Below are positions 45,138 to 62,545 of a stretch of 64,000 bases of DNA, piece by piece. The translations under genes were made by a program, and so were the position numbers. The stretch is from Micromonospora sp. KC723 (GTDB taxonomy: Bacteria; Actinomycetota; Actinomycetes; Mycobacteriales; Micromonosporaceae). The stretch covers positions 1 to 64,000 of the forward strand of contig NZ_SMKD01000014.1 in NCBI RefSeq assembly GCF_004348595.1, read 5' to 3'. Below the pieces are notes generated by a model. The model saw only the letters and a program-made list of their open reading frames with translations, was not told the origin of the DNA and ran no database searches. Position 1 is the first letter of the stretch, and the number at the start of each line of letters is the position of its first letter.

Positions 45138-45155
45138 GCGCGCCGCGCCGGCCCC

Positions 45156-46712: not shown

Positions 46713-46812
46713 CGTTTGCCGTCCATCGATCCGTCGTTGTCTTGCGACCCGCGCGGATCCCGAGCGCCCGCGCCGAGGAGTAGCGAATTCTTGTTAGCCA
46801 GTGCTGCCGACG

Positions 46813-48276
46813 TCAGCCAAGGCTGAAGTCGACGACTCGAATTGACGAGGGTGTGGTGCCGCTCGACCGCCGCTGGTACAGGATGGACAGAACCCCGTCG
46901 GTGGTCACTCGGGAGCGGTCGACGACGACCTCCCCGAAGGCGTTCAGGCCGGACCCGTCAAACCGGAGCGTCCAATCGGTCCAGCCGCTGGCTTTGCTGG
47001 CGGTGACGATGCGTCCGTAGGGCAGGACCACGTAGGCGTTGTCGGCGCGGTCGAGGACGATCTGGGAACGGCCAAAGGCGTTCAACGCCACCGGGATTTC
47101 GACTTTGCGCCAGGCACCCTGCGCGTTGCGGACGAGGTGGAACGCGCGCGCGTACGAGCGGCGCTGGCTGGTGAAGTTGGTGACGCACTGGGTGAATCGG
47201 CCGGGCACGTAGCTGATGATCACGTGCGGCTGGCCGGTGGAGTCGACGGTCTGGCTCTCCTGGTTGATCAGCGCGTGGTCGGCGTTCAGCGCGTCGACGA
47301 CGTGCCCGGGGGAGGTGACGGACACGAGGGTGCCGTTGGTGGTGCCGACCTGTTGGCCGGCATTGTTGCGCCAGGTACGGCCACGGTCGTCGCTGTAGAC
47401 ATAGCCTGTGTCGTGGTTGCTGAGCCCGCCGCGGTTGCACATGACCGCCGCGTTCTGCTCCCGCCAGGTGAAAGCGGCGTGCAGCCGGCCGTTCAGGCCA
47501 TATGTGAGGCCGTGCAGGTACATGTTGCGGCGCGTGCTGGTCGCGCCGTGCTGGGTCCAGTTGCCCGTGGCCGACGACCACCGGCCAAGGCGGCGCCAGG
47601 TGGAGCCGTCGTACTCGACCAGTTCGTTTGTGCCGTTGCCCGAGCCGCCGGTGCGGTAGCTGAGCTGCAGCCGGCGTTCCGGGGTGATGGCGAACTGTGG
47701 GTATGTGATGGCGCCCAGTTCCAAGCCGTCGAGCGTGCGCTGTACTGCTCCCAACGCGGTCGCCGTCCAGCTGCGGGAGCCGGCGTCGGTCAGGAGGCCA
47801 GCCTCGGACTTGACGTAGAAGACCCGGCTGTCGTGGGTATCCATCGCCACGTGCAACCGCCCGTCCGACGGCGACACCCCGAGGGAGATGGAGTTGTGCG
47901 AGTCGTTCGTCGTCAACGAGTGGGCCAGCTGCAGTGTTTGCCACGCCCCGCTCGGGAGCTGCCGGCGCGCGACGACCACTCGGCGGCTGGACGTGTACCA
48001 CGCCGCGTACTGGTAGCCGCCGAAGGTGAGGATGCCGTCCTGCTGGTAGGAGGCGTTGTTCACGAGGCCGTCGTACGACACGAAGTACAGCGCCCGTGGA
48101 TCGAGCTCGGTGTCCGCCAACCGCGTCACCGTCGGCCCCGCTGCCGCGTTGACCGCCGGCGCCGCAGCCGTCTGGGCGCTGCTTGCCGTTGCGACGGTGA
48201 CCGGGATAGCAAGCCCCGCCACGAGGATGGACGCAATCAGGGCTCTTCGGGTAGCACGCGTTCCAGATCCGATCAT
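46813..48276 (-). CDS. Secreted BNR-repeat propeller protein (PL42/GH145-like)
   Basis: A 487-residue exported protein. The signal peptide covers about 1-40 (ALIASILVAGLAIPVTVATA). The rest is a seven-bladed beta propeller of the BNR_4 type: HNSISLGVSPSDGRLHVAMD, ITYPQFAITPERRLQLSYRT, YVYSDDRGRTWRNNAG, HVIISYVPGRF. This fold includes ulvan lyases and the rhamnose-glucuronate lyases/rhamnosidases (PL42, GH145) acting on arabinogalactan-protein tips, which suits the surrounding galactanases. The ATG at 48276 has AAGGAG 6 bases upstream; the frame extends further but without a signal-like start. It is expressed from the operator block at 48531-48591. Confidence 0.75.
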   Translation of the reverse strand: MIGSGTRATRRALIASILVAGLAIPVTVATASSAQTAAAPAVNAAAGPTVTRLADTELDPRALYFVSYDGLVNNASYQQDGILTFGGYQYAAWYTSSRRVVVARRQLPSGAWQTLQLAHSLTTNDSHNSISLGVSPSDGRLHVAMDTHDSRVFYVKSEAGLLTDAGSRSWTATALGAVQRTLDGLELGAITYPQFAITPERRLQLSYRTGGSGNGTNELVEYDGSTWRRLGRWSSATGNWTQHGATSTRRNMYLHGLTYGLNGRLHAAFTWREQNAAVMCNRGGLSNHDTGYVYSDDRGRTWRNNAGQQVGTTNGTLVSVTSPGHVVDALNADHALINQESQTVDSTGQPHVIISYVPGRFTQCVTNFTSQRRSYARAFHLVRNAQGAWRKVEIPVALNAFGRSQIVLDRADNAYVVLPYGRIVTASKASGWTDWTLRFDGSGLNAFGEVVVDRSRVTTDGVLSILYQRRSSGTTPSSIRVVDFSLG

Positions 48277-48530
48277 TGCGGACTCCTTCATGCCTGGGTG
48301 ACGGGTCTGGCCGCCGGAGAGGCTCCAGGCGATGGCGAACCAGACATGCGCGTGACTGACCCCGCGCATGATGAAGTTGTTGCCCGTGGCTCCCGAGATG
48401 CCGCGTCGGTTGACGGCGTGTCCTGATCTTTCTTCATGACTCAACCTCAGGCAGGGGGTGCGGTGGAGCCCAACAGCCCGGGGCCACTATCGAGCCGGTG
48501 GCCGGTGGGCGGCCGCTCGGCCACGGTCCC

Positions 48531-48591
48531 TGTGAGCGCTCCCAGCCGATGATGTATCAGACAGTCTCCCGGCCGAACCTGTAACTGTCAA
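48531..48591 (-). promoter_or_regulatory. LacI-type operator/promoter block A
   Basis: On the minus strand: TTGACA (48591-48586), then GATACAT and the operator TGGGAGCGCTCACA (48544-48531). The same order and spacing occur at three other enzyme genes. It points toward the BNR/GH43 genes with a leader of about 255 bases. The -10 box is less clear than in the other copies. Confidence 0.7.
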
Positions 48592-48747
48592 TCGATAAGG
48601 GTCAACTCGACCGGATGGATGGCGCTGGCCGACCCGAGCAGAGTCCGGTACCCGTCACGGCCGGAGCCTCGCCGCCTGACCAGCGTGGACTGCGGCACCC
48701 GATACAGTCGGTACGACCCTTGCACCCACCGGCGTCGGGAGCGCGTA

Positions 48748-49713
48748 GTGGTACGCCCGTTTGATATCGAGGAGGTCTTCCCCGAGGTCGCCGCTGGATC
48801 GCAGCGTCGGCGGCGCCGACAGTCGGGCAGCTCGGCCCAGGGCGTGGCGGTCACCCTTATCGCCGACTACACCGTACGTACCCGGGCCTGGTTGCCTTCA
48901 GCGGCGATCGTGGCGCTGTTGGGTGAGTTCGGGGTGACCAGTGGCGCCGCCCGCACGGCCATCAGCAGGCTGGCCCGCCGGGGGATCCTGGAGGGCAGTC
49001 GGCAGGGGCGTCACAGCTCGTACCGCCTGACCGAGGGCGCCGCCAGTGATCTGACGAAAGGCGGCACCGCCATCGGCGCTGTCGGCGCAGAGTCCGAAGC
49101 CTGGGACGGATCATGGACGGTCGTGGTCTTCTCCGTGCCGGAGCAGGAGAGCACGCGACGGCGTGCGCTACGGGATCACTTGCGTTGGAATGGTTATGCC
49201 CCGTTGTATGACGGGGTGTGGATCTCGCCAGATCCGTTGCCGCCGGCAGGGCGGGCGGAGCTGGCGGCTGCGGCGCGCGGCTCGGTGACGGTGTTCCGCG
49301 CGCAGCATCAGGAGCTGCAGGCGGAGGCTGACCGCAGTCCGGTTGAGGCCTGGGACCTGCCGGGCATCGCGAAAGCGTACGAGACGTTCATCGATCGATG
49401 GTGGCCGCTGCTGCCGCGGATAGCCGCCGGCGAGGTGACCGGTGCGGCCGCGGTCCGGACGCGTACCGAGGTGATGGACGTCTACCGACGCTTTCCGGTG
49501 CTCGACCCGATGCTGCCGGTTGCCCTTATGCCGCCTGACTGGCCACGCAGACGTGCCCGGGCAGTGTTCGTCGCGATCTACGACGGACTGCTCGAACCGG
49601 CGCAGGATCACATCCGCTCGGTGGTTGCCCGTGTCGCGGACGGGCCCTGGCCCGACATCCAGGCACACACGGTCGCGCACATGGCCGCCGGGGTTCGCCA
49701 CGGCCCGGACTGA
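48748..49713 (+). CDS. PaaX-family transcriptional regulator
   Basis: A 321-residue regulator. The N-terminal winged helix (VTLIADYTVRTRAWLPSAAI, SGAARTAISRLARRGILEGS, RQGRHSSYRLTEG) is followed by the PaaX central domain (WDGSWTVVVFSVPEQESTRR, LRWNGYAPLYDGVWISPDPL) and the C-terminal helical domain (FPVLDPMLPVALMPPDWPRR). PaaX itself represses phenylacetate catabolism by sensing an acyl-CoA; distant members regulate other carbon sources. The GTG at 48748 has GGGAG upstream; the frame is open earlier but unconserved. It is divergent from the BNR/GH43 genes, and block A lies between them. Its role in this locus is inferred from position only. Confidence 0.85.
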   Translation: MVRPFDIEEVFPEVAAGSQRRRRRQSGSSAQGVAVTLIADYTVRTRAWLPSAAIVALLGEFGVTSGAARTAISRLARRGILEGSRQGRHSSYRLTEGAASDLTKGGTAIGAVGAESEAWDGSWTVVVFSVPEQESTRRRALRDHLRWNGYAPLYDGVWISPDPLPPAGRAELAAAARGSVTVFRAQHQELQAEADRSPVEAWDLPGIAKAYETFIDRWWPLLPRIAAGEVTGAAAVRTRTEVMDVYRRFPVLDPMLPVALMPPDWPRRRARAVFVAIYDGLLEPAQDHIRSVVARVADGPWPDIQAHTVAHMAAGVRHGPD

Positions 49714-49776
49714 GCGGTCCACAGCTAGACGGCGGACGGGCTCAGATGCCCTTGACGCGTATTACCCGGTCAGCAT

Positions 49777-49810
49777 GCGGGCCGCCGCGTCTCTGGGCGC
49801 GGCGGCCCGC
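49777..49810. terminator. Bidirectional hairpin terminator
   Basis: GCGGGCCGCCGCG (49777-49789) and CGCGGCGGCCCGC (49798-49810) form a perfect 13-base stem with an 8-base loop between the convergent PaaX and GH53 genes. Confidence 0.8.
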
Positions 49811-49838
49811 TCGTTTACAGTCGGTCACAGGGCCGATG

Positions 49839-51758
49839 TCAGGGAAGCGCCCCGGGACGCTCGACAACGTCGATGACCGCCGTTACGGCACCGAACCTGG
49901 TCATGCCGGTGACGAGCACCTCACCAGGCGCGTCGGTCGCTCTGGCCGGCAGCGCCTGCCATCGGACGGGGACGGTGGTGAGGGTATCCCGCGCGGTGGT
50001 GAGTACGCGGATTGCGGTGGGTAGCGCCGGAATCGTGCCGATCCTGGTGGCGGTGTAGACGGTGTCTTCCAGGATGTGCTTGGCTCGGCTGGCGTTGAAC
50101 ACGTTGATGGACGCGTGCGGCTCCCAGGTGTTGGGCAACTCGGGCACGGCCCGGAACATTGTCTGCCATCCCGCCGGTTCCCAGACCAGCACTGCGCTGC
50201 CCTGGTTGTTGACCACGTCGTTGGCGGCCTGGAAGACCCGCTGGATCGCGTCCGCCTGGCCTTGGACGGTGCGCGGGTAGGGCGAGTTGGGCAGCGGTGA
50301 GCCGTCGCCGCCGGAGGCGGGGTAGGAGGTCTCGGCGACGTCGATCTCGTAGTCGGGGTAGGTGGTCGCCATCGTGTGTAGGTTGAAGTCCAGTGCCTCG
50401 GGTGTGCCGTGCCACTCCGGGTAGTAGGAGATGGCCAGCACGTCGGGGTTTTGGCCTTTTGCCTTGACCCGGGTGAGGAATTGGTGCCAGAACTCCATGG
50501 TCTTGGCGAGGCGGTTCCTGTCGACGATCACGTGGATCTCGACCTTGGACTTCGGGGACGCGTCGCGGACGGCCTCGATCCCGGACGCGGCCAGGGTGGT
50601 GAACCGGTCCCACGCCTCGTTGTAGAGCCGCTGCTCGACCGGGTCGGTGGACTGCCAGTACCGCCACAGCAGGCCACCGCCGGGCTTGGACTGGTAGACG
50701 TCGGCTTCGTTGGCGAAGTACGGCGGGTTGGTGGTGCCGATGAGGGCTGCCTCGCTGCCGTACATGAAGCCGTTGATGATCTCGTTTCCGACGGCGACCT
50801 TGTCCGGTCTGGTGCCCTGTTGGATCAGCCGGCGCAGGTAGTCGGCGGTGAAGTCGTACACGGACTCGGTGAGGTCGTCGAAGTCCAGTTCTGCCCAGGC
50901 GCGTGGTTTGGGTTGCTTGCTCGGGTCCGCCCAGGAGTCCGCGTAGTGGAAGTCGATGCCGAGGCCCATGTCTCGTTCCTTGATCCATTGGGCTGACTGC
51001 AGGGACCGCTCCGGGCCCTGGCGGGGGATCGGCGTTAGTTGGCCGGTGGTCTCGTCTCGCGGCTCGTTGAAGATCCGCAGCCGGGCGTACTCCATGCCGC
51101 GGTCTTTGGCCACGTCGAGTAGGTGGGGCCCGGCGCCCCGGTCGGCGGCCAGAGGGCTGACCCAGTACTGCCGGGTCTGGAAGTCGTCGACCCAGGACAT
51201 GTCGGCGCCGAGGGTGAGGTCGTCGCGTAGGTAGTTGAAGACCTGTATCTCGCTGACGCCGACCTTGGCGTGCCGGGACGCGCCGGTGATGGTGAGCCGG
51301 ACGAAGCGAGTATCCGGCCGGGTGAACAGGTGCACCGCCCCCCGCGAGGCGGTTCGGTTGCGGGATCGGTTGGCGATCGTCTTCCACCGGCGAGCGTCGG
51401 ACGAGGCCTCGACGACGTACCGGTACACCGCGCCGCGGTCCGGGAAGACCACCCTGACCTTGCGGAGGTTGTCGTAGGTGCCGCCAAGGTCGACGGTCAG
51501 CCGCTGGTGGGCGCCGGGGCTGTCCGCGTACCAGGACGTCATCGGGTCGCCATCCGTGGCCAGGCGAGCGGTGGACGCGCCGCTGCTGGCCGTCGCCGAG
51601 GCCCAGGACTTGGCGGCGATGTTGCTTTCGATGGGTTTGATGTCCGCGGTGCCGAAGACGGCGTGCGCCGGAGTGGGCGCCGCAAGCATCCCCGCGCTCG
51701 CCAGGGCAGCGAATGCGGTCACCGCCACGGCTGTGCGAGCGGGGTTCCTGACCCCCAT
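49839..51758 (-). CDS. Secreted GH53 endo-beta-1,4-galactanase with CBM32-like domain
   Basis: A 639-residue exported enzyme. The signal peptide covers 1-33 (AVTAFAALASAGMLAAPTPA). An F5/8-type C (CBM32-like) domain spans about 40-175 (TARLATDGDPMTSWYADSPG, RFVRLTITGASRHAKVGVSE). The GH53 barrel spans about 180-560: GADMSWVDDF at its start, acid/base Glu326 in AVGNEIING, nucleophile Glu476 in DVAETSYP. A bacterial Ig-like group 4 domain follows (VPVRWQALPARATDAPGEVL). The enzyme cleaves type I arabinogalactan side chains of pectin. The ATG at 51758 has AGGAGAAGG upstream. It is divergent from the GH43_24 gene and shares the region that holds operator block B. Confidence 0.92.
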   Translation of the reverse strand: MGVRNPARTAVAVTAFAALASAGMLAAPTPAHAVFGTADIKPIESNIAAKSWASATASSGASTARLATDGDPMTSWYADSPGAHQRLTVDLGGTYDNLRKVRVVFPDRGAVYRYVVEASSDARRWKTIANRSRNRTASRGAVHLFTRPDTRFVRLTITGASRHAKVGVSEIQVFNYLRDDLTLGADMSWVDDFQTRQYWVSPLAADRGAGPHLLDVAKDRGMEYARLRIFNEPRDETTGQLTPIPRQGPERSLQSAQWIKERDMGLGIDFHYADSWADPSKQPKPRAWAELDFDDLTESVYDFTADYLRRLIQQGTRPDKVAVGNEIINGFMYGSEAALIGTTNPPYFANEADVYQSKPGGGLLWRYWQSTDPVEQRLYNEAWDRFTTLAASGIEAVRDASPKSKVEIHVIVDRNRLAKTMEFWHQFLTRVKAKGQNPDVLAISYYPEWHGTPEALDFNLHTMATTYPDYEIDVAETSYPASGGDGSPLPNSPYPRTVQGQADAIQRVFQAANDVVNNQGSAVLVWEPAGWQTMFRAVPELPNTWEPHASINVFNASRAKHILEDTVYTATRIGTIPALPTAIRVLTTARDTLTTVPVRWQALPARATDAPGEVLVTGMTRFGAVTAVIDVVERPGALP

Positions 51759-51820
51759 ACCTTCTCCTAACCCGTGCGGGCTCTGCTGCCAGAACCACGT
51801 TGCACGTTGATGCCTATCGA

Positions 51821-51879
51821 TTGACAAGTGTGCGTCCGACGGTAACACTCATCGATACATTTATGTGGGAGCGCTCACA
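51821..51879 (+). promoter_or_regulatory. LacI-type operator/promoter block B
   Basis: TTGACA (51821-51826), a 16-base spacer, TAACAC (51843-51848), GATACAT, then TGGGAGCGCTCACA (51866-51879). It reads toward the exo-galactanase gene with a 183-base leader. Because the operator is palindromic and 108 bases upstream of the GH53 start on the other strand, one repressor could control both. Confidence 0.75.
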
Positions 51880-52062
51880 TGGCACACAGCGGGCACATCG
51901 AGGCGAAGGTGGCCCTGCTCGCTACCCGGCAGGCGAACGCCGCCGCGGACGGTGCCCTACGGCACGCGCCGACGACACCGTTCGCCCTCGCTGGCCGTGG
52001 CTACGCCGCAGCGCCCTGCGCGCGGCGACCAGCACAGACGACGACAAGTGAAAGGCAGCGTC

Positions 52063-54225
52063 ATGATCCATACCACGCGCGAGACATTGAAACGCGGGGC
52101 ACTGGCCGCCGCCGCGATGCTGTTCATGTCGGTGGCGGTGGCGGTGGCGGTGGCAGCTGGCGGCGCCGCCGCGGAGAGCACGCCCAGCGGCGATGCCGTC
52201 TCAGCAGAACAGGTGGGGGGCCTGGGGAGTCTGGTCGCGGACTACAAGACCCGCTCCGCGAGCAGGTACACCGGCGACTCCTGGGCGCCCTTCGCCAAGG
52301 CGTTGAAAACCGCAACCGATGTCGCCGCCGACGCATCGGCGACCGCGCCGGAAATCGCCGCCGCGAAGACGGCGCTCATGAGCGCCGCCGGCGAGCTGGA
52401 GGCGGCCGACGAGGGCACCTTCCAGACCATCACGAACAACACCTTCTGGAACGACACCAGCGGCAACCCCATCTATTCGCAAGGCGGGGGCGTCTTCAAG
52501 TTCGGCGACACCTACTACTGGTACGGCGTGCACTACCTGGGCGCTGAGAGCTACCGGGCCAACCCGACCAGGAAGTACGACAACCAGGTCTCGTTCGTCT
52601 CGATCCCCGTGTACTCCTCAAGGGACTTGGTGAACTGGAAGTTCGAGAACCGGGTCGCGACGCGCTCGACCCCGATCAACAACGGCGCCACCCTTGGTCA
52701 GGCAGGATGGGTCGGGCGGCTTGGGGTCTCGTACAACGAGAACACCGGCAAGTACGTGCTGGCCACCCAGGCCTATGTCGGAGGCGGGCACGGGGTCCTG
52801 TTCCTGCAGGGCGACTCGCCCACCGACACCTTCGACTACGCCTACTTCCAGACCCAGGTCGTCAACTCGCCGACGACGGGCACCGGGGACCAGACCGTGT
52901 TCACCGACGAGGACGGCAAGGACTATCTGATCTTCTCCAACCGAGAAGGACGTTCTCGCGCCTTTGTCAGCAAGTTCAGGGAGTCCGACTCGCTGCGGAT
53001 CGAGCCGGGAGCGGAGATCGGTCGCAACTCCTCCGGACGCGAGGGCAACGCCATGTTCAAGCTCGACGGCAAGTACTACCACGCGGCGTCGGACCTGCAC
53101 GGCTGGAACACTTCAGTCAACTACGTGATGGAGTCGAGCAGCGTCCAGAGCGGTTACTCGGGTGAGTACGTTCTCGCCGGCACTGAGATGGACTACAGCC
53201 ACGTGACCCAGACCGGGTTCTTCGTGACGGTCAAGGGCACCAAGCAGACGACGGTGATCTACGCCGGTGACCGGTGGGCGGACTTCGCGTGGAACGGGAT
53301 CGGCTACAACCAGTGGGTGCCGATCACCAGGACCGGCTCGCGGCCGCAGTTCCACTCGGTGAGCCAGTGGCAGTTCAACGCCACGACCGGGGAGTGGCGG
53401 GTCGGTCCGGCCAACAACTACATCCTGAACCCGAACTTCCAGGCCGACCGGGTTGTTGTGTCGCAGGTGCGGGGGTGGACCAACACCGGCGGGGGCGTGA
53501 CCAACGTCAGCCCTGGCGCGAACGGCAGCCGCTTCGCGCTGCAGCTCGGCTCCGGATCGGCCGGCGTCCGGCAACAAATCACCGTGCCGGCCGGCACCTA
53601 CCGACTGTCCACGTACGCCAAGACCTCCGGCTCGGTGAGCGGCGCGCAGCTGTCGGTCACCGACGCGAGCGGCGCCACGCGTACGTTGAGCATCCCGTCG
53701 TCCAGCGGCTGGACCCGGCGCGACTCCGCGGAATTCCAGCTGGCCGCTGGCGCCGCCACCGTCACCATCCGCACCAGCAGCGGAACCCTCACCGTCGACG
53801 ACCTCGCACTGGTCAGGACGTCCGGCGTTCCGACACCGGGGCAGCGGTACGAGGCGGAGACGGCGCCGGCGGTGTGCCAGGGCACGATCGACTCCAACCA
53901 TGCCGGCTTCACCGGCACCGGATTCTGCAACGCCAGCGCCGCGATCGGCGCGTACGCGCAATTCACGGCCACCGCGGCGGCGGCCGGCACCGCGACGCTC
54001 GGGGTCCGGTTCGCCAACGGTGCCAGCGGGCTGCGGACGGCGAACCTGATCATCAACGGTTCGACCGTAGCGACGGTCTCGTTCGAGACCACCGGAGGGT
54101 GGACGACATGGGCTACCAAGACGCTGACCGCCTCGCTCAACGCCGGCAGCAACACCATCCAGCTGAGTCCAACCGTTGCCGACGGACTGCCCAACATCGA
54201 CCACCTCCACGTGGGCGCCGCCTGA
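52063..54225 (+). CDS. Secreted GH43_24-type exo-beta-1,3-galactanase with CBM35
   Basis: A 720-residue exported enzyme. The signal peptide covers about 1-36. A FIVAR-like helical domain spans about 45-110 (LVADYKTRSASRYTGDSWAP). The GH43 propeller spans about 115-450, with NDTSGNPIYSQGGGVFKFGD and TYYWYG, the pattern of subfamily 24 galactan 1,3-beta-galactosidases, which lack the usual catalytic base. A CBM4/9-like beta-sandwich spans 452-580 and a CBM35 about 585-720 (YEAETAPAVCQGTIDSNHAG, ATLGVRFANGAS). It would remove galactose from beta-1,3-galactan main chains of arabinogalactan proteins. It is expressed from block B and followed by a strong terminator. Confidence 0.85.
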   Translation: MIHTTRETLKRGALAAAAMLFMSVAVAVAVAAGGAAAESTPSGDAVSAEQVGGLGSLVADYKTRSASRYTGDSWAPFAKALKTATDVAADASATAPEIAAAKTALMSAAGELEAADEGTFQTITNNTFWNDTSGNPIYSQGGGVFKFGDTYYWYGVHYLGAESYRANPTRKYDNQVSFVSIPVYSSRDLVNWKFENRVATRSTPINNGATLGQAGWVGRLGVSYNENTGKYVLATQAYVGGGHGVLFLQGDSPTDTFDYAYFQTQVVNSPTTGTGDQTVFTDEDGKDYLIFSNREGRSRAFVSKFRESDSLRIEPGAEIGRNSSGREGNAMFKLDGKYYHAASDLHGWNTSVNYVMESSSVQSGYSGEYVLAGTEMDYSHVTQTGFFVTVKGTKQTTVIYAGDRWADFAWNGIGYNQWVPITRTGSRPQFHSVSQWQFNATTGEWRVGPANNYILNPNFQADRVVVSQVRGWTNTGGGVTNVSPGANGSRFALQLGSGSAGVRQQITVPAGTYRLSTYAKTSGSVSGAQLSVTDASGATRTLSIPSSSGWTRRDSAEFQLAAGAATVTIRTSSGTLTVDDLALVRTSGVPTPGQRYEAETAPAVCQGTIDSNHAGFTGTGFCNASAAIGAYAQFTATAAAAGTATLGVRFANGASGLRTANLIINGSTVATVSFETTGGWTTWATKTLTASLNAGSNTIQLSPTVADGLPNIDHLHVGAA

Positions 54226-54290
54226 CCTGCTGTCCGCAGGCACGGTGACCTGACCACCGCCAACGAAACCCGACCTATCCACTGGTAAGG

Positions 54291-54345
54291 CCGGAGCGTC
54301 CGCGGCACCGCTGGATCCGGGCAAGCGGCGCCGCGGACGCTCCGG
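54291..54345. terminator. Strong hairpin terminator
   Basis: CCGGAGCGTCCGCGGC (54291-54306) pairs perfectly over 16 bases with GCCGCGGACGCTCCGG (54330-54345). The 23-base loop contains a further CCGCT/AGCGG pair. It lies 65 bases after the exo-galactanase stop. Confidence 0.85.
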
Positions 54346-54507
54346 CGACTCTGACAGCCGTATCACGGGATCCGCCCTGCCGCCCCCGCATCGCAGGAGG
54401 CGATGAGGTGCACCCTTCTCGGCAAACGCTCACCCGCCGCGCCGGAGCCAGGGCCATCGTCCTCACCGCGCGGCTGCCCTGGTCGTCGTGCCGGTTCGGT
54501 CGCGTCC

Positions 54508-54537
54508 GGGCCCCGCGCGCGTTCTGCGCGCGGGCCC
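54508..54537. terminator. Hairpin terminator at the 3' end of the GH42 remnant
   Basis: GGGCCCCGCGCGC (54508-54520) pairs with GCGCGCGGGCCC (54526-54537) with one bulged C and a 5-base loop, just beyond the end of the minus-strand beta-galactosidase remnant. Confidence 0.65.
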
Positions 54538-54544
54538 AAGCTCA

Positions 54545-55750
54545 CGAAGCAGTGCGCAGGACGCGGTCGTCTCCGGTGGTACCGGTACTGTCCTCGTGGC
54601 ACGGGGCGCCGGTGATCAATTCCTTACCGGTCGCGGCCAGTTTTACGTCGCGGTCGATGTGGTTGATGGCGATGATGTAACTGGCGGAGTCGCCTGCCCG
54701 GTGGACCAGCTCCACGTCGTCCGGCACGCCGTCACGGGGGACCAGCCCGGCCTCGGCCAGCACGGCGTCGTGGTCGCGGCCGTTCAGGCGGGTGGATACA
54801 TACCAGGCGGTGCCCGCGCACAGACGATGGTGATGTCCGGCACGACCCTGGTGCCGACCAGCTCGTCCTGATTAGACGGGTCTGTGCCCAGGCGCACGAC
54901 GTCGCGCCACATCCGGGCGCTGGTGCCGCAGTGGGGAAGCATCGTGGAGTGAGACTTCTCCGCGCCGAAGCGGGACGCCCGCCATCGGAAGAAGGGGGCG
55001 AAGTCGGCGCCGCGGGCGATGTGGGCAAAGCTGTTGCGGCGCATCTCACCGGGTTCCTTAGCGATGTTGCGGGGCTGCCAGTTGACCGCGCCGGTCGAGT
55101 GTTCCATGAGCAGCCTCGGCCGGCCCCGGGCCACGGACCGGGTGAGGTCGGCGCCATGGCGAGCTCGATGTGGTTGTCGGACCGCTCGGCCTGCAGGTAG
55201 TGGTCGTTGGAGATGACGTCCACCTCGGCCGTCCATCGCCAGTACTCCATCCACTTGCAGTTGGGCACCATGAAGTTGGTCGTCACAGGTACGCCCGGTG
55301 CGATCCGGTGCAGCACGTCGCGCTCGGCGCGGAAGCACGCCAGGAACTCGTCGGAGAAGAACCGAAGGAAGTCGAGCTGCTGGGTCGGGTTGACGCCAGG
55401 CGGCGCGAGGCGGGGCGGGTCGATCTCGGTCCAGTCGCCGTACCGCTGGCCCCAGAAGGTGGTGCCCCACGCGGTGTTGAGCGCGTCGAGCGCGCGCGCA
55501 GCCAGTGGCGGAAGGCGGTTGCCGAGGTCTCGCAGTAGCAGGACGAGGTGGCTCAGCCGTACTCATTGTGCGCGTGCCACAAGACCAGTGCCGGGTGGTC
55601 GCCGCACGTCCTCGCGCCACACCGGCTCGGGCCACTGCTCGGGGTTGTGGTCCCGCCATACCCGATCTTCCCGAGGCGGGGCAGCGCCCGCGTGCCGCCG
55701 TTCGTAGGCCTCCAGGTTCTGCGCGCCCACAGAGATGCCCGTCATCATGA
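54545..55750 (-). pseudogene. GH42 beta-galactosidase, multiply broken
   Basis: Minus-strand frames give GH42 landmarks in order. RVWRDHNPEQWPEPVWREDV is the N-terminus. A deletion of about 100 residues follows, then VLWHAHNEYG with the acid/base Glu, then an in-frame TGA. Next come CYCETSATAFRHWLRAR, then RIAPGVPVTTNFMVPNCKWM and VDVISNDHYLQAERSDNHIE, then after another frame change RPRLLMEHSTGAVNWQPRNI with the nucleophile Glu. The C-terminal domain ends at SYIIAINHIDRDVKLAATGK. At least three frame breaks, one stop and a deletion rule out function. An intact copy would have released galactose from imported or extracellular galactans. Confidence 0.8.
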
Positions 55751-55789
55751 CACAACACTCAACGCTTACGGGACCGACAGGTGTGCGTA

Positions 55790-55833
55790 TTGACACACGC
55801 GCGAGGTGAGGCGAACATTGTGAACGCTCACAA
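55790..55833 (+). promoter_or_regulatory. LacI-type operator/promoter block E (ABC importer)
   Basis: TTGACA (55790-55795), 17 bases, GAACAT (55813-55818), then TGTGAACGCTCACA (55819-55832), extending to TTGTGA...TCACAA (55818-55833). The operator overlaps the -10/start region, only 34 bases before the binding-protein gene, unlike the long leaders at the enzyme genes. Confidence 0.7.
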
Positions 55834-55866
55834 AATATTTCCGCCGGGTTAACGGAGGAGAGCTCC

Positions 55867-57222
55867 ATGCTCGATAGAGACATCAGCCGGCGCCGCTTCC
55901 TCACCGGTTCGGCGCTCGTCGCGGGCGGCGCCTTCGGTGTGCCGCTGCTCGGCGCGTGTGACGCGAGTTCGGGTGGTGATTCGTCCGGTGACGGCAAGAC
56001 CGTGACGCTCACCGTCATGTACAAGAACAACGAGCTGACCAAGGAGCACATCGCCGATTTCGAGGCGAAGCACCCCGGTATCAAGATCAGCTTCATTGAG
56101 TACGACGAGACGCGGCTCAACGCGATGCTGGCTTCCAACGAGCCGCCGGACTTCGTCCGCGCGCCGGCGGTGGGCAGCGCCGCCAGCAACGCCCAGGGCT
56201 TGACCACCGCGCTCGACCCGTACCTGGACAAGAGCACGGTGCTGAAGAAGGACAACCTGATGGCGGTCAACGAGAGCTTCCGCTGGGACGGCACGCGCAC
56301 CGGCCAGGGTCCGTACTACGGCATCACCAAGGACTGGAGCCAGGACGCGACGCTCTGGTACAACCGGGCGCTGTTCGAGCAGGCCAAGATCCCGCCGCTG
56401 AGCACCACCGAGCCCATCTCGTACGACGAACTGCTGGAGATCGCCAAGAAGCTGACCAAGAAGAGCGGCGGCAAGACCCAGGTGTACGGCCTCGGCGTGG
56501 AGTGGGCGTGGGGACTGTCCTCACCGATCTTCATGATGATCCTTCAGCAAGGTGGGCAGGTCTACAACGCCGACCTGACCGAGACCGACATGACCACGCC
56601 GGAGGCCAGGCGGGCCATCCAGTGGTACGTCGACTTCGGGCAGGCGGGCGTCGGGCCGACCACCCTCGACCCGGCCCCGGACGGCGCCGACCTGTCGCTG
56701 TTCTTGGCCAAGCGGATGGCGATCACCCAGGACGGCTACTGGTACGGCGGCAACTTCGTCAAGGAGTCCGAGGAAATCAAGAACAGCGTGGCGATGGCGC
56801 CGGCGCCGGTGATGGGCGACAAGCGGATCAGCCCAACGTACGTCGGTTGGGGGGCCATGATCCCGGCCAAGGCCAGGCACAAGGACGAGGCCTGGAAGCT
56901 CATGGAGTACTTCATGGCCGGGCCACCGTCGGAGGAGCGGGCCGGGAGTGGGTGGGGCTTGCCGGGCCTGAAGTCGCAACTGTCGCTGTTGCCGCAGGAT
57001 CTGCCGTATCAGAAGCAGGCCTACCAGACCACGCAGGCCGAACTGCCGCACGTCGCGCAACTGCCGGACTCGCCATACATAACGGGGGGCGGCTGGTTGC
57101 CCGTGCTCGACAAGCACATCACCCGCGCGATCAAGAAGGAGATCACCGTCGACGCCGCCGGCAAGGCGATCACCGACGAGATCAACAAACTGCTCAAGCA
57201 GGGCAAGGATCAGATCGGATAG
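55867..57222 (+). CDS. ABC sugar-binding lipoprotein
   Basis: A 451-residue extracellular solute-binding protein of family 1. The signal peptide combines a twin-arginine motif (ISRRRFLTGS) with a lipobox (VPLLGACDA), so it is probably Tat-exported and lipid-anchored. Binding-protein features are WYNRALFEQAKIPPLS, the hinge region, LFLAKRMAITQDGYWYGGNF, and SPTYVGWGAMIPAKARHKDE with AWKLMEYFM. GGAGGAG precedes the ATG. The two permease genes follow at once and no ATPase is present, so a shared MsiK-type ATPase elsewhere is likely. Ligands are probably galacto-, arabino- or rhamno-oligosaccharides from the neighbouring enzymes. Confidence 0.9.
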   Translation: MLDRDISRRRFLTGSALVAGGAFGVPLLGACDASSGGDSSGDGKTVTLTVMYKNNELTKEHIADFEAKHPGIKISFIEYDETRLNAMLASNEPPDFVRAPAVGSAASNAQGLTTALDPYLDKSTVLKKDNLMAVNESFRWDGTRTGQGPYYGITKDWSQDATLWYNRALFEQAKIPPLSTTEPISYDELLEIAKKLTKKSGGKTQVYGLGVEWAWGLSSPIFMMILQQGGQVYNADLTETDMTTPEARRAIQWYVDFGQAGVGPTTLDPAPDGADLSLFLAKRMAITQDGYWYGGNFVKESEEIKNSVAMAPAPVMGDKRISPTYVGWGAMIPAKARHKDEAWKLMEYFMAGPPSEERAGSGWGLPGLKSQLSLLPQDLPYQKQAYQTTQAELPHVAQLPDSPYITGGGWLPVLDKHITRAIKKEITVDAAGKAITDEINKLLKQGKDQIG

Positions 57223-57230
57223 TGGTCGCC

Positions 57231-58175
57231 ATGGAAGCGGAAAGGGCGGGACGCGGGCGGCGGCGCTGGTCGCGGTATCCCAGCCGGACCTTCTACCTGT
57301 TCGTCTCGCCCTGGGTCCTCGGTTTCGCGTTGCTCACCGCGTTGCCGCTCGGGTACGCGCTGCTGGTCAGCTTCACCAACTTCAACGGCCGCAACAGCCG
57401 GTGGCGTTGGGTCGGCCTGCGCAACTACACCGAGCTGGTACGCGACGCGGACGTCATCGCCAGCCTGGTCCGCACGCTGGCGTACACGGCGATCACGGTG
57501 CCGTTGATGGTGGGCGGCGGGCTGGGCCTGGCCGTGCTGCTCAACCGGCGGCTGAAGGCCGTCGGTCTGTTCCGGACGATCTTCTTCCTGCCCTCGGTGG
57601 TGCCGGTGGTGGCCATGGCGATCATGTGGAAGCTCATCTTCAACCGGGACGCCGGCATCCTCAACGCGATACTCGAGAGGGTCAGCGTGGGACCGACCGC
57701 CTGGTTGGTCGATCCGAACGCGTTCTACGCGCTGATCATCCTCACCCTGTGGGGACTGGGCGGTGGCATGGTCATCATGCTCGCCGCTCTCCAGGGTGTG
57801 CCGGCCGAGCTGGAGGAGGCGGCGGTCGTCGACGGCGCCAGCCGCTGGCACGTGTTTCGCCACGTAACCGTGCCGATGATCTCGCCGGTCATCTTCTTCC
57901 AGGTGGTCACCGGCATCATCGCGTCCTTCCAGATCGTCATCCAGCCGCTGCTGCTCGCCGAGTCCAACCAGGTCGGCTCGGTGGCCCTGGTGCCGCAGAG
58001 CACCCACCTGTACATGGTGCAGGTCTACGAGGAGTTCTTTAACAACAACCGGTACGGCTACGGCTCCGCCATGCTTTGGGTGTTCTTCGTGGTCATCCTG
58101 GCCATCACCCTCGTGGTGCTGCGGTCCAGCCGGCTGTGGGTGCACTACCAGGTCGACAGCGAGGGCGAACGATGA
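57231..58175 (+). CDS. ABC sugar permease, MalF-type
   Basis: A 314-residue membrane protein with six helices. It starts with a basic tail (RAGRGRRRWSRYPSRTFYLF), and the EAA loop that contacts the ATPase reads ELEEAAVVDGASRWHVFRHV. It matches the MalF/LacF half of carbohydrate importers. The ATG lies 8 bases after the binding-protein stop; a GTG at 57222 overlapping that stop is an alternative start. It overlaps the next permease by 4 bases. Confidence 0.92.
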   Translation: MEAERAGRGRRRWSRYPSRTFYLFVSPWVLGFALLTALPLGYALLVSFTNFNGRNSRWRWVGLRNYTELVRDADVIASLVRTLAYTAITVPLMVGGGLGLAVLLNRRLKAVGLFRTIFFLPSVVPVVAMAIMWKLIFNRDAGILNAILERVSVGPTAWLVDPNAFYALIILTLWGLGGGMVIMLAALQGVPAELEEAAVVDGASRWHVFRHVTVPMISPVIFFQVVTGIIASFQIVIQPLLLAESNQVGSVALVPQSTHLYMVQVYEEFFNNNRYGYGSAMLWVFFVVILAITLVVLRSSRLWVHYQVDSEGER

Positions 58176-59065
58176 CGATTGTCCGTGACCCCGCACGCCC
58201 GGCGATCAAACCGGCCTCGCCGGCACCGGCGCGGCGACCCCGGCGCAGGGCCAACGCGGTGGGTACCTACCTTTTGCTGATGACGCTGGCGGTGCTGTTC
58301 GCCGGACCGTTCGCCTGGCTGGTGCTCGCCGCGTTGAAGACCAAGACGGAGTGGGTCACGATCCCGGCGAAGATCCTGCCGGAAGATCCGCAATGGGGAA
58401 ACTTCACACAGGCGCTCACCGAAATAAACTTTACGGCGTACCTCGGGAACTCGCTCTTCCTGTCGTTTCTGTACGCGGTGCTGGTGACCTTCTCCAGCGC
58501 GGCCGTCGGCTTCGGTTTCGCACGGCTACGCGGGCGGGGCAAGCGTCCTCTGTTCATGGTGCTGCTCTCCACCATGATGTTGCCGCAGATCCTCACGCTG
58601 ATTCCCACCTATGTGCTGTTCGCGCGGGTCGGGCTGGTCAACACGTACTGGCCGTGGGTGCTGTGGGGCCTCGCCGCTTCGCCGTACCTCGTGTTCCTGT
58701 TCCGCCAGTTCTTCGCCGCCATCCCCGCGGAGCTGGAGGACGCGGCGGTCATCGACGGCTGCGGATACGGCCGGATTTTCCTGCAGATCTTCCTGCCACT
58801 GTCCCGGCCCGTGCTGGTGACCTCGTTCCTGCTTTCGTTCACCTGGATCTGGGGCGACTACATCGCCCCCGCCCTCTTCCTCGACCCCGACCACACCACG
58901 CTGTCCGTGGCCATCTCGGCGTTCTACCGCGACCCGCACGGCAACCCCGACACCACGCTGCAAGCGGCCGCCGCCACGCTCTACGTGGTACCCGTTCTGG
59001 TCATCTTCCTGTTCGCGCAGCGCTACTTCATCCGCGGCGTCCTCAGCTCCGGTGTGAAGGGATAA
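58172..59065 (+). CDS. ABC sugar permease, MalG-type
   Basis: A 297-residue six-helix membrane protein, partner of the previous permease. Features: FAGPFAWLVLAALKTKTEW, GFGFARLRGRGKRPLFMVLL, and the EAA loop ELEDAAVIDGCGYGRIFLQI. The C-terminus RYFIRGVLSSGVKG is typical of MalG/LacG proteins. It is last in the importer operon. No clear terminator follows before the next promoter block at 59237. Confidence 0.92.
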   Translation: MTIVRDPARPAIKPASPAPARRPRRRANAVGTYLLLMTLAVLFAGPFAWLVLAALKTKTEWVTIPAKILPEDPQWGNFTQALTEINFTAYLGNSLFLSFLYAVLVTFSSAAVGFGFARLRGRGKRPLFMVLLSTMMLPQILTLIPTYVLFARVGLVNTYWPWVLWGLAASPYLVFLFRQFFAAIPAELEDAAVIDGCGYGRIFLQIFLPLSRPVLVTSFLLSFTWIWGDYIAPALFLDPDHTTLSVAISAFYRDPHGNPDTTLQAAAATLYVVPVLVIFLFAQRYFIRGVLSSGVKG

Positions 59066-59236
59066 CTCACGACGCACCGACACCGTTGACGTCTTCGTCG
59101 CCCGGGTCGACCACGTCCCAGCCGCGTCCAAGGACGCCGCTTCGTGGTGACGTCAGGCGGACCGTTGACGTCGTTCGGGCAGGTGGAGAGCGTGATCGGC
59201 ATTCCGGCACTCAGCAAGCGCGCTGACGTCTGTCGA

Positions 59237-59294
59237 TTGACAAGTAGCTGTCTGACGGTGACACTATTGATATATATGAATGGGAGCGCTCGCG
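59237..59294 (+). promoter_or_regulatory. LacI-type operator/promoter block C
   Basis: TTGACA (59237-59242), a 16-base spacer, TGACAC (59259-59264), GATATAT, then TGGGAGCGCTCGCG (59281-59294). It reads toward the PL11 lyase with a leader of about 335 bases. It is almost identical to block D over the first 28 bases. Confidence 0.72.
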
Positions 59295-59629
59295 GCACGT
59301 TCTCATCAGGGCACCAGAACGAGGGCCACACTGTCCTGAGCGGCCGACCACGGACGCAGCTGCCCGCCGAACGCTTGGGCCGTTTCCGTGCCGGTGCTGG
59401 CGTGTCCTGATCCGCTGCGAGCGGTAGCCGGTGGGGCGGGGCCGGTTGAGGTACCCAATGGATCCCACGAAGGAGTCATCGTGTCGATGCAACGCGCGGC
59501 CTTCGTCAAGGACGCGGACGTCGGGATCGACGACGTTCGGTTTCATCGGCGGCGGAACGCCGGCCACCCCCAATACCCACCCGCACAGCCCGTGATGGGC
59601 TTCGCCATCACCTGACTCTGGAGATCATC
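59295..59629 (+). pseudogene. Leader with relic start of a Tat-exported protein
   Basis: This leader is related to that of the alpha/beta hydrolase at 62.5-62.9 kb. Both contain GGCCGACC-CGGAC, GATCCGCT, and the ribosome site and start CCACGAAGGAGTCAT followed by a GTG. Here the start at 59481 gives VSMQRAAFVKDADVGIDDVR and stops at 59615, whereas the intact gene reads VQMQRRTFLKAGAAGAV. It looks like the head of a lost paralogue, whose promoter now serves the PL11 gene. Confidence 0.5.
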
Positions 59630-61900
59630 ATGTTTCCACGCAGACAACGCGTCGCGTTGCTGTCCGCCGGCGCGGTGATAGCGGTGGCGGGCGCAGGGGT
59701 GCTCACCGCCGCGGCGGCTTCCGCGGCGGCGACCCGCTACGAGGCTGAAACCGCACCCTCCACATGTGACGGTGTCATCGAGTCCAACCACACCGGCTAC
59801 TCCGGCATTGGATTCTGCAACGCCAACAACGCGGTCGGGGCGGTGGCGCAGTTCACGGTGACCGCGTCCGTCGCCGGGGAGGCCACCGTAGCGGTGCGGT
59901 ACGCCAACGGCGCGACCAGCAACCGTCCGGCGGACGTGCTGGTCAACGGCGCGGTCGCGCAGTCGGGTGCCGCGTTCAACGGCACCGGCGCGTGGACGAC
60001 CTGGGCCACCACGACGCTGACCGTATCGGTGAACGCCGGCAGCAACACGATCCGGCTCAGCCCGACCACGGCCAATGGCCTTGCCAACATCGACTACGTC
60101 GACTTCGAGGTGGGTGGCTCGCCACCCACGTCGCCACCGCCCAGTTCGCCGCCGCCCGGATCGGGCAAGCAGATGGAGGACCTGAACCGCGGCCTGATCA
60201 GCGTGCGGTCGGGCAGCGGCAACCTAGTCTCCTGGCGGCTGCTGGGCACCGAGGCCGCGAACACGGGCTTCAACGTGTACCGCGGTTCGACGAAGGTGAA
60301 CTCGTCGCCGATCACCAACTCCACCAACTACTTGGACTCCGGCGCCGCGGCCGACGCGTCGTACACGGTCCGCGCGGTCGTCAACGGGGTCGAGCAGGCG
60401 GCGTCGGAGGCCTCGCTGCGGTTCGCCGGCGGCAACTACCTGGACGTGCCGATCTCCCGGCCGGGCAGCAACTACACCGCCGGCGACGCCAGCGTCGGTG
60501 ACGCGGACGGCGACGGCCAGTACGAGATCTTCCTCAAGTGGGACCCCTCAGATCAGAAGGACCCTGCCCAGGACGGGGTCACCAGCAACGTCTACATCGA
60601 CGCCTACCGGCTCAACGGCACCCGGCTGTGGCGCATCGACATGGGCCGTAACATCCGGGCCGGCGCCCACTACACCCAGTTCCAGGTCTATGACTACGAC
60701 GGCGACGGCCGGGCTGAGATGGCGGTCAAGACCGCCGACGGGACCCGCTCCGGCACCGGACAGGTGATCGGCGACGCCAACGCCCTGCACCGCAACTCGA
60801 CCGGGCACGTCAACGCCGGACCGGAGTTCTTGACGATGTTCGACGGGCTTACCGGTGCGGTGCGCTCGACGGTGAACTACGAACCGGCCCGGGGCAACAT
60901 CGCCGACTGGGGCGACACCAAGGGCAACCGCGGTAACCGGTTCCTGGCCGGGACCGCCTACCTCGACGGTCAGCGTCCCACTCTCATCATGAGCCGCGGC
61001 TACTACGAAAAGACCGCGATCGCGGCCTACGACTTCCGCAACGGTCAACTGTCACTGCGGTGGAAGTTCGACTCCCGCACGGCCGGTAGTCAGTGGACCG
61101 GCCGGGGGGCGCACTCGCTGTCCATCGCCGACGTCGACGGTAACGGTACCGACGAGATCATCTTCGGCGGTATGACCATCAACGCCAACGGCACCGGCCG
61201 CTACACCACCAGCTTCTACGGTCACGGCGACGCGCTGCACGTCGGCGACCTCGTCCCCAGCCGGCCTGGCCAGGAGATCTGGATGATCCACGAGTCGAGC
61301 TCCAGCCCGGCGGCGACGTTACGGGACGCCAACAACGGCTCGGTCATCTTGCAGAGGAACAACTCCTGCGGCTGCGAGGGCCCGGCCCGTGGTGTGGCCG
61401 GTGACATCTACGCCGGTAACGCCGGCGCCGAATTCTGGGGCACCGGCACCGGACTGGGCAACCTGCTCAACGCCTCGGGCACCAACGTGGGTCGCAACCC
61501 GAGCAGCTACAACTTCCTTGCCTGGTGGGACGGCGACCCGATCCGGGAACTGCTCAACGGCAACTACGTCGACAAGTACGGCACCGGCGGCGACACCCGC
61601 CTCATGACCGGCTCCGGCGCCCACTCCGTCAACGGCAGCAAATCCACTCCGTCGCTGTCGGGTGACCTGTTCGGCGACTGGCGCGAAGAGATCATCCTGC
61701 CGCGTGACGACAACAACGCCCTGCGCATCTACTCCACCCCCATCCAGACCGACCGGCGCATCTACACACTCTTGCACGACGCCCAGTACCGCGTCGCGGT
61801 CGCCTGGCAGAACACCACCTACAACCAGCCGCCGCACCCGAGCTTCTTCCTCGGCAACGGCATGACCACCCCGCCGCAACCGAACATCCACGTCCGCTGA
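59630..61900 (+). CDS. Secreted CBM35-PL11 rhamnogalacturonan lyase
   Basis: A 756-residue exported enzyme. The signal peptide covers about 1-33 (VALLSAGAVIAVAGAGVLTA). A CBM35 (35-163: RYEAETAPSTCDGVIESNHT, TIRLSPTTANGLANIDYVDF) and a Pro/Ser linker (164-180) follow. The PL11 eight-bladed propeller runs from about 183 to the end: QMEDLNRGLISVRSGSGNLV, DADGDGQYEIFLKWDPSDQK, DYDGDGRAEMAVKTADGT and IADVDGNGTDEIIFGGM, with calcium-binding DGDG loops. It cuts the rhamnose-galacturonate backbone of rhamnogalacturonan I by beta-elimination. It is transcribed from block C and followed by a hairpin terminator. Confidence 0.95.
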   Translation: MFPRRQRVALLSAGAVIAVAGAGVLTAAAASAAATRYEAETAPSTCDGVIESNHTGYSGIGFCNANNAVGAVAQFTVTASVAGEATVAVRYANGATSNRPADVLVNGAVAQSGAAFNGTGAWTTWATTTLTVSVNAGSNTIRLSPTTANGLANIDYVDFEVGGSPPTSPPPSSPPPGSGKQMEDLNRGLISVRSGSGNLVSWRLLGTEAANTGFNVYRGSTKVNSSPITNSTNYLDSGAAADASYTVRAVVNGVEQAASEASLRFAGGNYLDVPISRPGSNYTAGDASVGDADGDGQYEIFLKWDPSDQKDPAQDGVTSNVYIDAYRLNGTRLWRIDMGRNIRAGAHYTQFQVYDYDGDGRAEMAVKTADGTRSGTGQVIGDANALHRNSTGHVNAGPEFLTMFDGLTGAVRSTVNYEPARGNIADWGDTKGNRGNRFLAGTAYLDGQRPTLIMSRGYYEKTAIAAYDFRNGQLSLRWKFDSRTAGSQWTGRGAHSLSIADVDGNGTDEIIFGGMTINANGTGRYTTSFYGHGDALHVGDLVPSRPGQEIWMIHESSSSPAATLRDANNGSVILQRNNSCGCEGPARGVAGDIYAGNAGAEFWGTGTGLGNLLNASGTNVGRNPSSYNFLAWWDGDPIRELLNGNYVDKYGTGGDTRLMTGSGAHSVNGSKSTPSLSGDLFGDWREEIILPRDDNNALRIYSTPIQTDRRIYTLLHDAQYRVAVAWQNTTYNQPPHPSFFLGNGMTTPPQPNIHVR

Positions 61901-61902
61901 CT

Positions 61903-61945
61903 CCGTTGGGGCCGCGCCGGCCCAGCGGCCGGCGCGCCCCAACGG
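61903..61945 (+). terminator. Hairpin terminator after the PL11 lyase
   Basis: CCGTTGGGGCCGCGCCGGCC (61903-61922) pairs with GGCCGGCGCGCCCCAACGG (61927-61945) with one bulged C and a 4-base loop, starting 3 bases after the stop codon. Confidence 0.85.
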
Positions 61946-62063
61946 GCACCCCTGGGCCGTGTTTCGTAGAGCGTTGATGTTGCGGCGTGGCGGTGATCGG
62001 TAACTGAAGAGGTCTCCGGTAGTTGGTTCAGCGGCCAAGCTGGAACTTCACACCGGAGACCTC

Positions 62064-62460
62064 GTGCCGAGCGTGGCGGCCGCGAGGCGACACGGCCTCA
62101 CCGATGGGCGGTGGGTGGTCCTTGAGTCGTTGCCGCTGGCCGGAGCGGGTCGTGATCGGCCGCGCAGATGGACATTGAGAGCACTCATCGACGGGATTCG
62201 GTGGCGGGTGCGGACCGGCTCACCGTGGCGGGATGCCGTCGGTGTATCCGCGGTGGCAAACCTCGTATCGATGGTTTCGCCGGGGCAGCGTGACGGCGTC
62301 TGGGCCCGGTTCCTGGCCTTGTTGCCGGCTCGGTCGGACACGGTCGGGTTGAATGGGGTGGACGCTGAGCGTGGACTCGACCATCAGCCGTGCCGATCAG
62401 CACGCTGCCGGAGCCCGCTGTGACGCGAGGTGCAGAAGGAGCTGTCCGGTGGTGTGCAGG
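62064..62460 (+). mobile_element. IS5-family transposase remnant
   Basis: The reading RRHGLTDGRWVVLESLPLAG, RWTLRALIDGIRWRVRTGSP and WRDAVGV is the N-terminal DUF4096-type domain of an IS5-family transposase. It runs on with small frame slips through RDGVWARFLALLPARSDTVG to a DSTISRAH-like scrap that retains the first DDE Asp, then stops. The second half is absent. Sequence resembling an IS end (CACACCGGAGACCTC) lies just ahead of the start. It separates the PL11 gene from block D. Confidence 0.7.
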
Positions 62461-62486
62461 CCGGGCCGGTGAGCTGGCGTCGTCTG

Positions 62487-62545
62487 TTGACAACTAGCTG
62501 TCCGGCGGTAACATTTATCGATACATATCGATGTGAGCGTTCACA
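62487..62545 (+). promoter_or_regulatory. LacI-type operator/promoter block D
   Basis: TTGACA (62487-62492), a 16-base spacer, TAACAT (62509-62514), GATACAT, then the perfect palindrome TGTGAACGCTCACA in reverse form, TGTGAGCGTTCACA (62532-62545). It reads toward the alpha/beta hydrolase gene with a 374-base leader. Confidence 0.75.

Follow-up and report, generated by a model that had tools for sequence, protein, structure and literature searches.

Which regulator controls the promoters of the plant-polysaccharide genes in the DNA studied here? The stretch (the window) is C55:1-64000, the first 64,000 nucleotides of the 67,496-base contig C55 in the genome of Micromonospora sp. KC723 (G000, 6.1 Mb). 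A preliminary description of the window pointed out five LacI-type palindromes, together with a shared block of about 60 bp, and read the whole as one LacI design. That reading is not sustained here. The block recurs across the family and in a second genus (g66), often without the palindrome, and it tracks a PaaX-family regulator. Judging from sequence comparisons, it is likely that a PaaX-type regulator controls the block as the promoter of secreted plant-cell-wall enzymes, with a LacI repressor as a second lock at some of these promoters.

All five palindromes are recovered by a pattern search of the window. With up to three mismatches, the 14-mer has 20 matches in the window, compared to 10.1 expected, and none of 100 shuffles reaches 20 (self-complementary places are counted on both strands). 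The strict palindrome TGNGARCGYTCNCA is found at eight places in the 6.1 Mb, four of them inside the window, with no match in the control. Four of the five sites (48531 on the minus strand, 51866, 59281 and 62532) have the shared block, with genome-wide E values of 7.5e-12 to 9.4e-10 from a profile that had these four among its training sites. The pattern at the four sites is TTGACA, 17 bp, nACACT and TGATACAT. The fifth site, at 55790, had been taken as a shorter form of the block. It has the palindrome and TTGACA, but it is not a copy of the block. In an unfiltered profile scan of 45000-64000, the four blocks score 40-47 bits and everything else scores 5.1 bits or less.

A matrix of the promoter part, with the palindrome omitted, matched other genera, some without the operator, among the loci of PL11 relatives (80 named loci and stretches of the own genome). 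Two profiles were built, R1 from sequence only (18 sites, palindrome omitted) and the refined R2 (51 sites). Many of their training sites reappear in the searches; the PaaX link had no part in the training. R1 finds 11 strong sites in G000, four of them outside the training set (C154, C226:25079, C226:116277 and C270), and R2 finds the same 11 at E values of 4.3e-8 or below, the next match having an E value of 0.17. This weak match (L203, C270:58313-58368) has a good core, stands before a sugar-binding protein gene and is possibly a twelfth site. Across the family, R1 gives 87 matches in 48 of 121 genomes, G000 included. A class-level search gives matches in 7 of 296 genomes, namely three of genus g1 (G000 included), three of g66, and G222, whose short match in a 1.4-Mb genome is taken as chance. 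Left out of the site sets were L155 (chance), L156, L160 and L268 (duplicates of the L065 and L085 sites) and L078 (weak).

In 46 non-redundant sites, conservation extends from -15 to +41 around TTGACA, about 57 bp, and every position outside this span carries at most 0.35 bit. The conserved parts are ATCGA (-15 to -11), TCGATTGACA (-4 to 5), TT (7-8), GTCC (13-16), GG (21-22), nACACT (23-28) and TGAYACA (32-38). The architecture is thus ATCGA-N6-TCGATTGACA containing the -35 element, a 17-bp spacer with GTCC-N4-GG, nACACT as the -10 element, N3, and TGAYACA. A sigma-70 type promoter has TTGACA, 17 bp and TANNNT. The -35 element and the spacing match this form, but the -10 element departs from it. 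A24 is present in all 46 sites and T28 in 45, whereas position 23 is never T. The transcription start of such a 17-bp promoter would be expected within TGAYACA. Two other ideas were dropped. One was a dyad with covariation, or an RNA hairpin, in the spacer (internal symmetry is not above chance). The other was a 15-base spacer pattern with three mismatches, which is too loose (1322 forward matches versus 673 in the reversed control). The best matches of the latter pattern revealed the C29 and C140 copies of the block.

The preliminary description regarded the sites as promoters of plant-polysaccharide genes, and this is borne out by the target genes, with the palindromes as LacI-type operators at a near-fixed distance. 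In the window the targets encode a BNR_4 protein (PL42/GH145-like), a GH43-CBM protein, a PL11 protein and an esterase-like CBM35 protein. Elsewhere in G000 they encode a CBM2-GDSL esterase (C140), a GH5-CBM2 protein (C154), a GH53-CBM35 protein (C226:25 kb), a CBM2 protein (C270) and, as a weak match, a GH59-like protein (C226:116 kb). Outside G000, the target gene was scanned for 36 of the 76 family matches. A codon-position GC rule was used to pick it, as the nearest called frame or, in two batches, the best-scoring one. Of the 36 genes, 33 encode cell-wall enzymes, cellulose-binding proteins or (secreted) esterases (5/6, 10/10, 9/10 and 9/10 in the four batches). The 33 include L280, a truncated esterase that scores under its Pfam cut-off; L157, L275 and L283 are not of these kinds. 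Among genes 3' of chance-level profile matches (20 scanned from a control list of 23), one is of cell-wall type (L204, with the match apparently inside its gene) and one encodes a sugar-binding protein. The scanned genes downstream of the family matches are mostly of cell-wall type (33/36 versus 1/20). Nine chosen sites in g66 precede three GH53 genes, two GDSL esterase genes (one under the cut-off), three window-like esterase genes and one gene for a sugar-binding protein.

At five loci the block stands before genes for secreted CBM2-DUF3237 proteins (L167, L170 and L284 by Pfam, L168 and L172 by eye), in which a domain of unknown function is fused to a cellulose-binding module. At L062 (C29, 2748-3700), a full block and operator precede a frame without a Pfam match; it contains scraps that by eye resemble a Big_4-type protein, and it is probably a decayed enzyme gene.

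A PaaX-family gene, overlooked in the preliminary description, begins about 140 bp from the 48.6-kb block. Its product has the N-terminal winged helix (PF07848, 54.6 bits), the central Cas2-like domain (PF20803, 73.9 bits) and the C-terminal domain (PF08223, 69.1 bits), all above cut-off. It matches the solved PaaX structure in PDB entry 8a39, presumably that of E. coli PaaX, with an E value of 6.8e-23 (residues 30-265 of the 304 given). With TIGR02277, the equivalog model of phenylacetate PaaX, it scores 154.8 bits, below the cut-off of 264.55, and five other PaaX proteins of the carbohydrate-active enzyme (CAZyme) type score 143.0-163.4. The nearest called neighbors of the window paaX are the BNR_4 and GH53 genes, and phenylacetate genes are not adjacent. 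G000 has three CAZyme-type PaaX genes, the copies on C226 and C236 being 68 and 72% identical to that of the window. The C236 copy (L236, C236:18962-19861) lies between apparent pectate lyase frames (by eye), without a nearby block, and may use a different site. A fourth PaaX in G000, on C270, is 28% identical to that of the window, scores 188.9 bits with TIGR02277, also below the cut-off, and adjoins an enoyl-CoA-hydratase-like frame (read by eye).

The block and this regulator occur together. Comparison with the LacI and PaaX regulators of the genome finds a relative of the window PaaX at 20 of 29 block loci, taken as the best per genome (L156-L184). A close PaaX was defined by an identity of at least 55% in the family and at least 52% in g66 (G001 is counted though its match is split). 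It is present in 39 of the 121 family genomes, and a block match is found in all 39, compared to 9 of the 82 without one (Fisher 2e-23, phylogeny ignored). In the nine genera that are polymorphic for close PaaX, 47 of 51 genomes have or lack regulator and block together; the overlap is not reached in any of 20,000 within-genus permutations, which correct for genus only. The block is located 22-221 bp from 36 of 45 close PaaX genes, 32 divergent and four tandem. Unfiltered scans beside the other nine add six adjacent blocks, all divergent (one in G098), for a total of 42 of 45.

The second genus, g66, appears to be Streptomyces-like and was entered through G231, since this genome had a block match. 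Among its 41 genomes only G138, G231, G422 and G426 have a close PaaX, and block matches with E below 0.05 are confined to the first three of these. G138 and G422 each have two places where paaX is followed in tandem by a block at 43-105 bp, two of these four blocks being weak on their own (E 0.22 and 0.45). In the family genome G093, a PaaX remnant with one stop is found at C1:1714317-1714619 (55% identity over 101 residues). The genome has no block match, and regulator and element have possibly been lost together.

Several observations weigh against control of the block by PaaX. Neither a dyad nor a direct repeat is seen inside the element above chance (p 0.68 and 0.55), in contrast to a typical dimer site. 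The element resembles only loosely the E. coli PaaX site, TGATTC(N27)GAATCA in the accessible text of PMC9493321. Conservation inside the span is somewhat inflated, because the sites were picked by a model covering about -15 to +40; the non-conservation outside is unaffected. Even in unfiltered scans, the block is missing near three close PaaX genes (own C236, G077:C3 and G039:C31), and none is found beside the PaaX of G426 (52% identity) in g66. Nine genomes have a block match without a close PaaX, convincing in G052 (1.4e-6), G101 (1e-5), G059 (2.7e-4) and G113 (1.5e-3), and weaker in G107, G023, G046, G085 and G119. In the own genome, the C29 block precedes the decayed frame and then a GH43-CBM gene, and the C226:58532 site points away from the neighboring GH30-like gene (below model cut-offs), toward a LysG-type regulator about 0.8 kb away. 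Lastly, a functional relation might be enough to keep PaaX genes close to CAZyme genes, with no binding of the element involved.

If PaaX does bind the block, the most likely mechanism is occlusion of the promoter. At its own promoter Px, the E. coli PaaX acts as a repressor that excludes RNA polymerase, and phenylacetyl-CoA releases it (PMC9493321, accessible text). By analogy, a PaaX-type dimer would cover the -35 and -10 elements and the start site and exclude RNA polymerase, until an inducer, probably an acyl-CoA, releases it. This is the simplest model because the element spans the -35 element to the predicted start site. It could also be that PaaX binds the block as an activator, for which the -10 element without its first T and the conserved bases just upstream of the -35 element would speak. 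The mode of action of E. coli PaaX and the stretch covered by the element argue for repression, and activation is considered unlikely.

The block might instead be a strong promoter form for the main or an alternative sigma factor, with no dedicated factor, in which case PaaX merely clusters with CAZyme genes. In favor of this are the promoter-like TTGACA, 17-bp spacing and nACACT, the near invariance of A24 and T28, and the lack of symmetry in the element. However, conservation extends to the upstream ATCGA/TCGA, to GTCC..GG in the spacer and to TGAYACA, and the absence of T at position 23 differs from a standard -10 element. Moreover, most targets belong to the cell-wall group, and within genera the element varies together with close PaaX. 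A promoter read by sigma factor alone is quite improbable.

The LacI-type operator is a separate module. Of 77 block sites, 27 have a palindrome with at most two mismatches downstream; in a control stretch upstream, one of the 77 has. In 24 of the 27 cases the palindrome is located +44 to +51 from TTGACA, shortly after the predicted start of the transcript. Its distribution is uneven: it occurs at six of the 11 own-genome sites, at four of five in Micromonospora sp. KC213 (the counterpart of the window PL11 protein there shows 99% identity), at four of five in CPCC 205371, at all nine sites chosen in g66, and at 4 of the remaining 47. The g66 sites were chosen for a recognizable core, and the count without them is 18 of 68; L272 and L275, duplicates of L137, were left out of this comparison. 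The sugar ABC importer of the window (55.8 kb) has the operator alone, without the block. A LacI-type operator is an even palindrome with a central CG, according to the accessible part of PMC4052901; the window sites have this form, are near sugar-gene promoters, and lean to TGTGAGCGCTCACA.

The window has no LacI gene, as first described; its sole PF00356 match (3497-3562) has 23.1 bits, under the 27-bit cut-off. G000 has 28 LacI proteins. On C154 the LacI-family gene L033 (a 443-aa frame) is divergent from a block with TGGGAGCGCTCAGA. Candidate partners for the operators are L033 and five proteins with a QTVSR recognition helix (L009, L010, L015, L021 and L023). A QTVSR helix is like that of E. 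coli LacI.

With the C154 gene in this position and a palindrome at a near-fixed distance after all four window blocks, the whole 60-bp block could be thought of as one LacI-repressed promoter design. The block is not a LacI element, however, because 50 of the 77 sites have no palindrome (43 of 47 outside the few genomes) yet conserve the block, and because its presence tracks close PaaX; the 55.8-kb operator, in turn, has no block. For the block the single design is largely refuted, and it is rated very improbable.

Under joint control by PaaX and LacI, a LacI-family repressor would bind the separate operator, about 45 bp downstream of TTGACA and inside the transcript, at some of the promoters, among them all four in the window. 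Both locks would have to open at promoters with block and operator, and the 55.8-kb ABC importer would carry the LacI lock only. As a tentative extension, this PaaX clade could have specialized in the control of plant cell-wall breakdown in actinomycetes, as its dedicated regulator. It would act through an asymmetric site from upstream of the -35 element to the start, and sense an aromatic or other acyl-CoA freed by the esterases under its own control (for example hydroxycinnamates). At pectin and galactan genes, a LacI sugar sensor would act alongside it, forming a two-signal gate.

The similarity among the blocks had been ascribed to recent duplication or strong constraint. Constraint accounts for most of the similarity, as 46 non-redundant sites fit one profile; the leaders downstream of the operators also show local duplication. 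Past the operators, homology is found between 62.5 kb and C29 (75% over 155 bp), 59.2 and 62.5 kb (90% over 31 bp), and 51.8 and 62.5 kb (78% over 67 bp). The leaders of the GH43 gene (51866-52063) and the PL11 gene (59281-59630) contain what appears to be left of the 5' end of the esterase gene at 62.9 kb, from its ribosome-binding site, start or signal region. This suggests that new genes here acquired copies of promoter and leader. Duplication of a promoter-leader unit may account for some of the copies in G000. As the general cause it is hardly credible, since the six own-genome sites compared have no homology upstream of the block, and the same element is found with different leaders in many genera.

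Table 1. Positions of the regulatory sites and genes in the window
Feature	Position	Strand	Basis
PaaX-linked promoter block before BNR_4 gene, divergent from PaaX-like gene	48551..48607	-	R2, E 7.5e-12
LacI-type operator TGGGAGCGCTCACA, +47 from first T of TTGACA	48531..48544	-	Pattern search
PaaX-family regulator, start codon approximate; open frame from 48619	48748..49713	+	PF07848, PF20803, PF08223 above cut-off
Target gene: BNR_4 protein, PL42/GH145-like	46813..48444	-	PF15892, E 3e-84; NF052497 match under its cut-off
PaaX-linked promoter block before GH43-CBM gene, divergent from GH53 gene	51805..51862	+	R2, E 1.8e-11
LacI-type operator TGGGAGCGCTCACA	51866..51879	+	Pattern search
Target gene: GH43 with CBM6/35, probable ATG; mechanical open frame from 51865	52063..54225	+	Pfam scan
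GH53 galactanase with F5/8C domain, divergent from 51.8-kb block; probable ATG after AGGAGAAGGT	49839..51758	-	PF07745
LacI-type operator TGTGAACGCTCACA, TTGACA at 55790, without PaaX-linked block; sugar ABC importer promoter	55819..55832	+	Pattern search and unfiltered scan
Sugar ABC importer, solute-binding protein	55867..57222	+	PF01547
Sugar ABC importer, permease	58076..59065	+	PF00528
PaaX-linked promoter block before PL11 gene	59221..59279	+	R2, E 2.6e-11
LacI-type operator, degenerate, TGGGAGCGCTCGCG	59281..59294	+	Pattern search
Target gene: PL11 rhamnogalacturonan lyase with CBM35/6	59630..61900	+	PF21348, PF18370
PaaX-linked promoter block before esterase gene	62475..62531	+	R2, E 9.4e-10
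LacI-type operator TGTGAGCGTTCACA	62532..62545	+	Pattern search
Target gene: esterase-like protein with CBM35/6, extends to C55:64197 beyond the window	62920..64000	+	PF07224, PF16990, PF03422

The polysaccharide locus is adjoined by a gene for a NACHT/STAND-type ATPase (41582-43726) and a fragment of a Mutator-family transposase (43980-44693).

PaaX regulators are mainly known from phenylacetate and styrene catabolism. The regulator described here is similar to the PaaX of the phenylacetate pathway (E. coli, Pseudomonas) in its three Pfam domains, its homology to 8a39, the location of its gene beside a target promoter, and the proposed promoter occlusion. It differs in that the targets of the window type are secreted polysaccharide enzymes rather than paa genes, and in its score below the equivalog cut-off. 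No link of PaaX proteins to polysaccharide enzymes was found in the literature covered, which excludes most subscription journals. In papers that have PaaX alongside "glycoside hydrolase" or "Micromonospora", the PaaX parts, as far as their accessible text goes, concern phenylacetate genes and a Pseudomonas deletion.

If the proposed control is correct, a PaaX clade would be a regulator of plant-biomass breakdown (pectin, galactan and xylan enzymes) in this actinomycete family, and its promoter code could be searched for. Up to now, control in the family has been read mostly through LacI proteins such as CebR. The window would also be an example of one promoter with two independent locks, and it points to a spread of promoter-leader pieces to new genes by copying.

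The CebR regulon of Streptomyces likewise has LacI-type 14-bp operators on cell-wall enzyme genes. The CebR box is TGGGAGCGCTCCCA in the accessible text of PMC4898821. The window operators were considered as CebR boxes and dropped, as none of the five matches this box exactly, and CebR explains neither the block nor the PaaX partner. In G000 the exact box is found at C36:5345, just before a GH9-CBM2 cellulase gene, and at C226:64400, inside a coding frame. CebR-like boxes, TGGGAACGCTCCCA and its complement, are located at C214:33400 and 33453, ahead of a sugar ABC operon that has a LacI gene. C214 is likely the ceb locus, and C214:38456, about 5 kb from the two boxes, is likely the CebR of this genome. 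The BxlR (LacI family) xylan regulon of Streptomyces SirexAA-E is also similar in the LacI-type control of secreted xylanases, but its motif, CGAANNTTTCG in the accessible part of PMC12772271, is unlike the window operators. The PaaX family, LacI operators and CAZyme regulons are thus all known; what would be new, on the sequence comparisons presented here, is this regulon and this form of site for the PaaX family.

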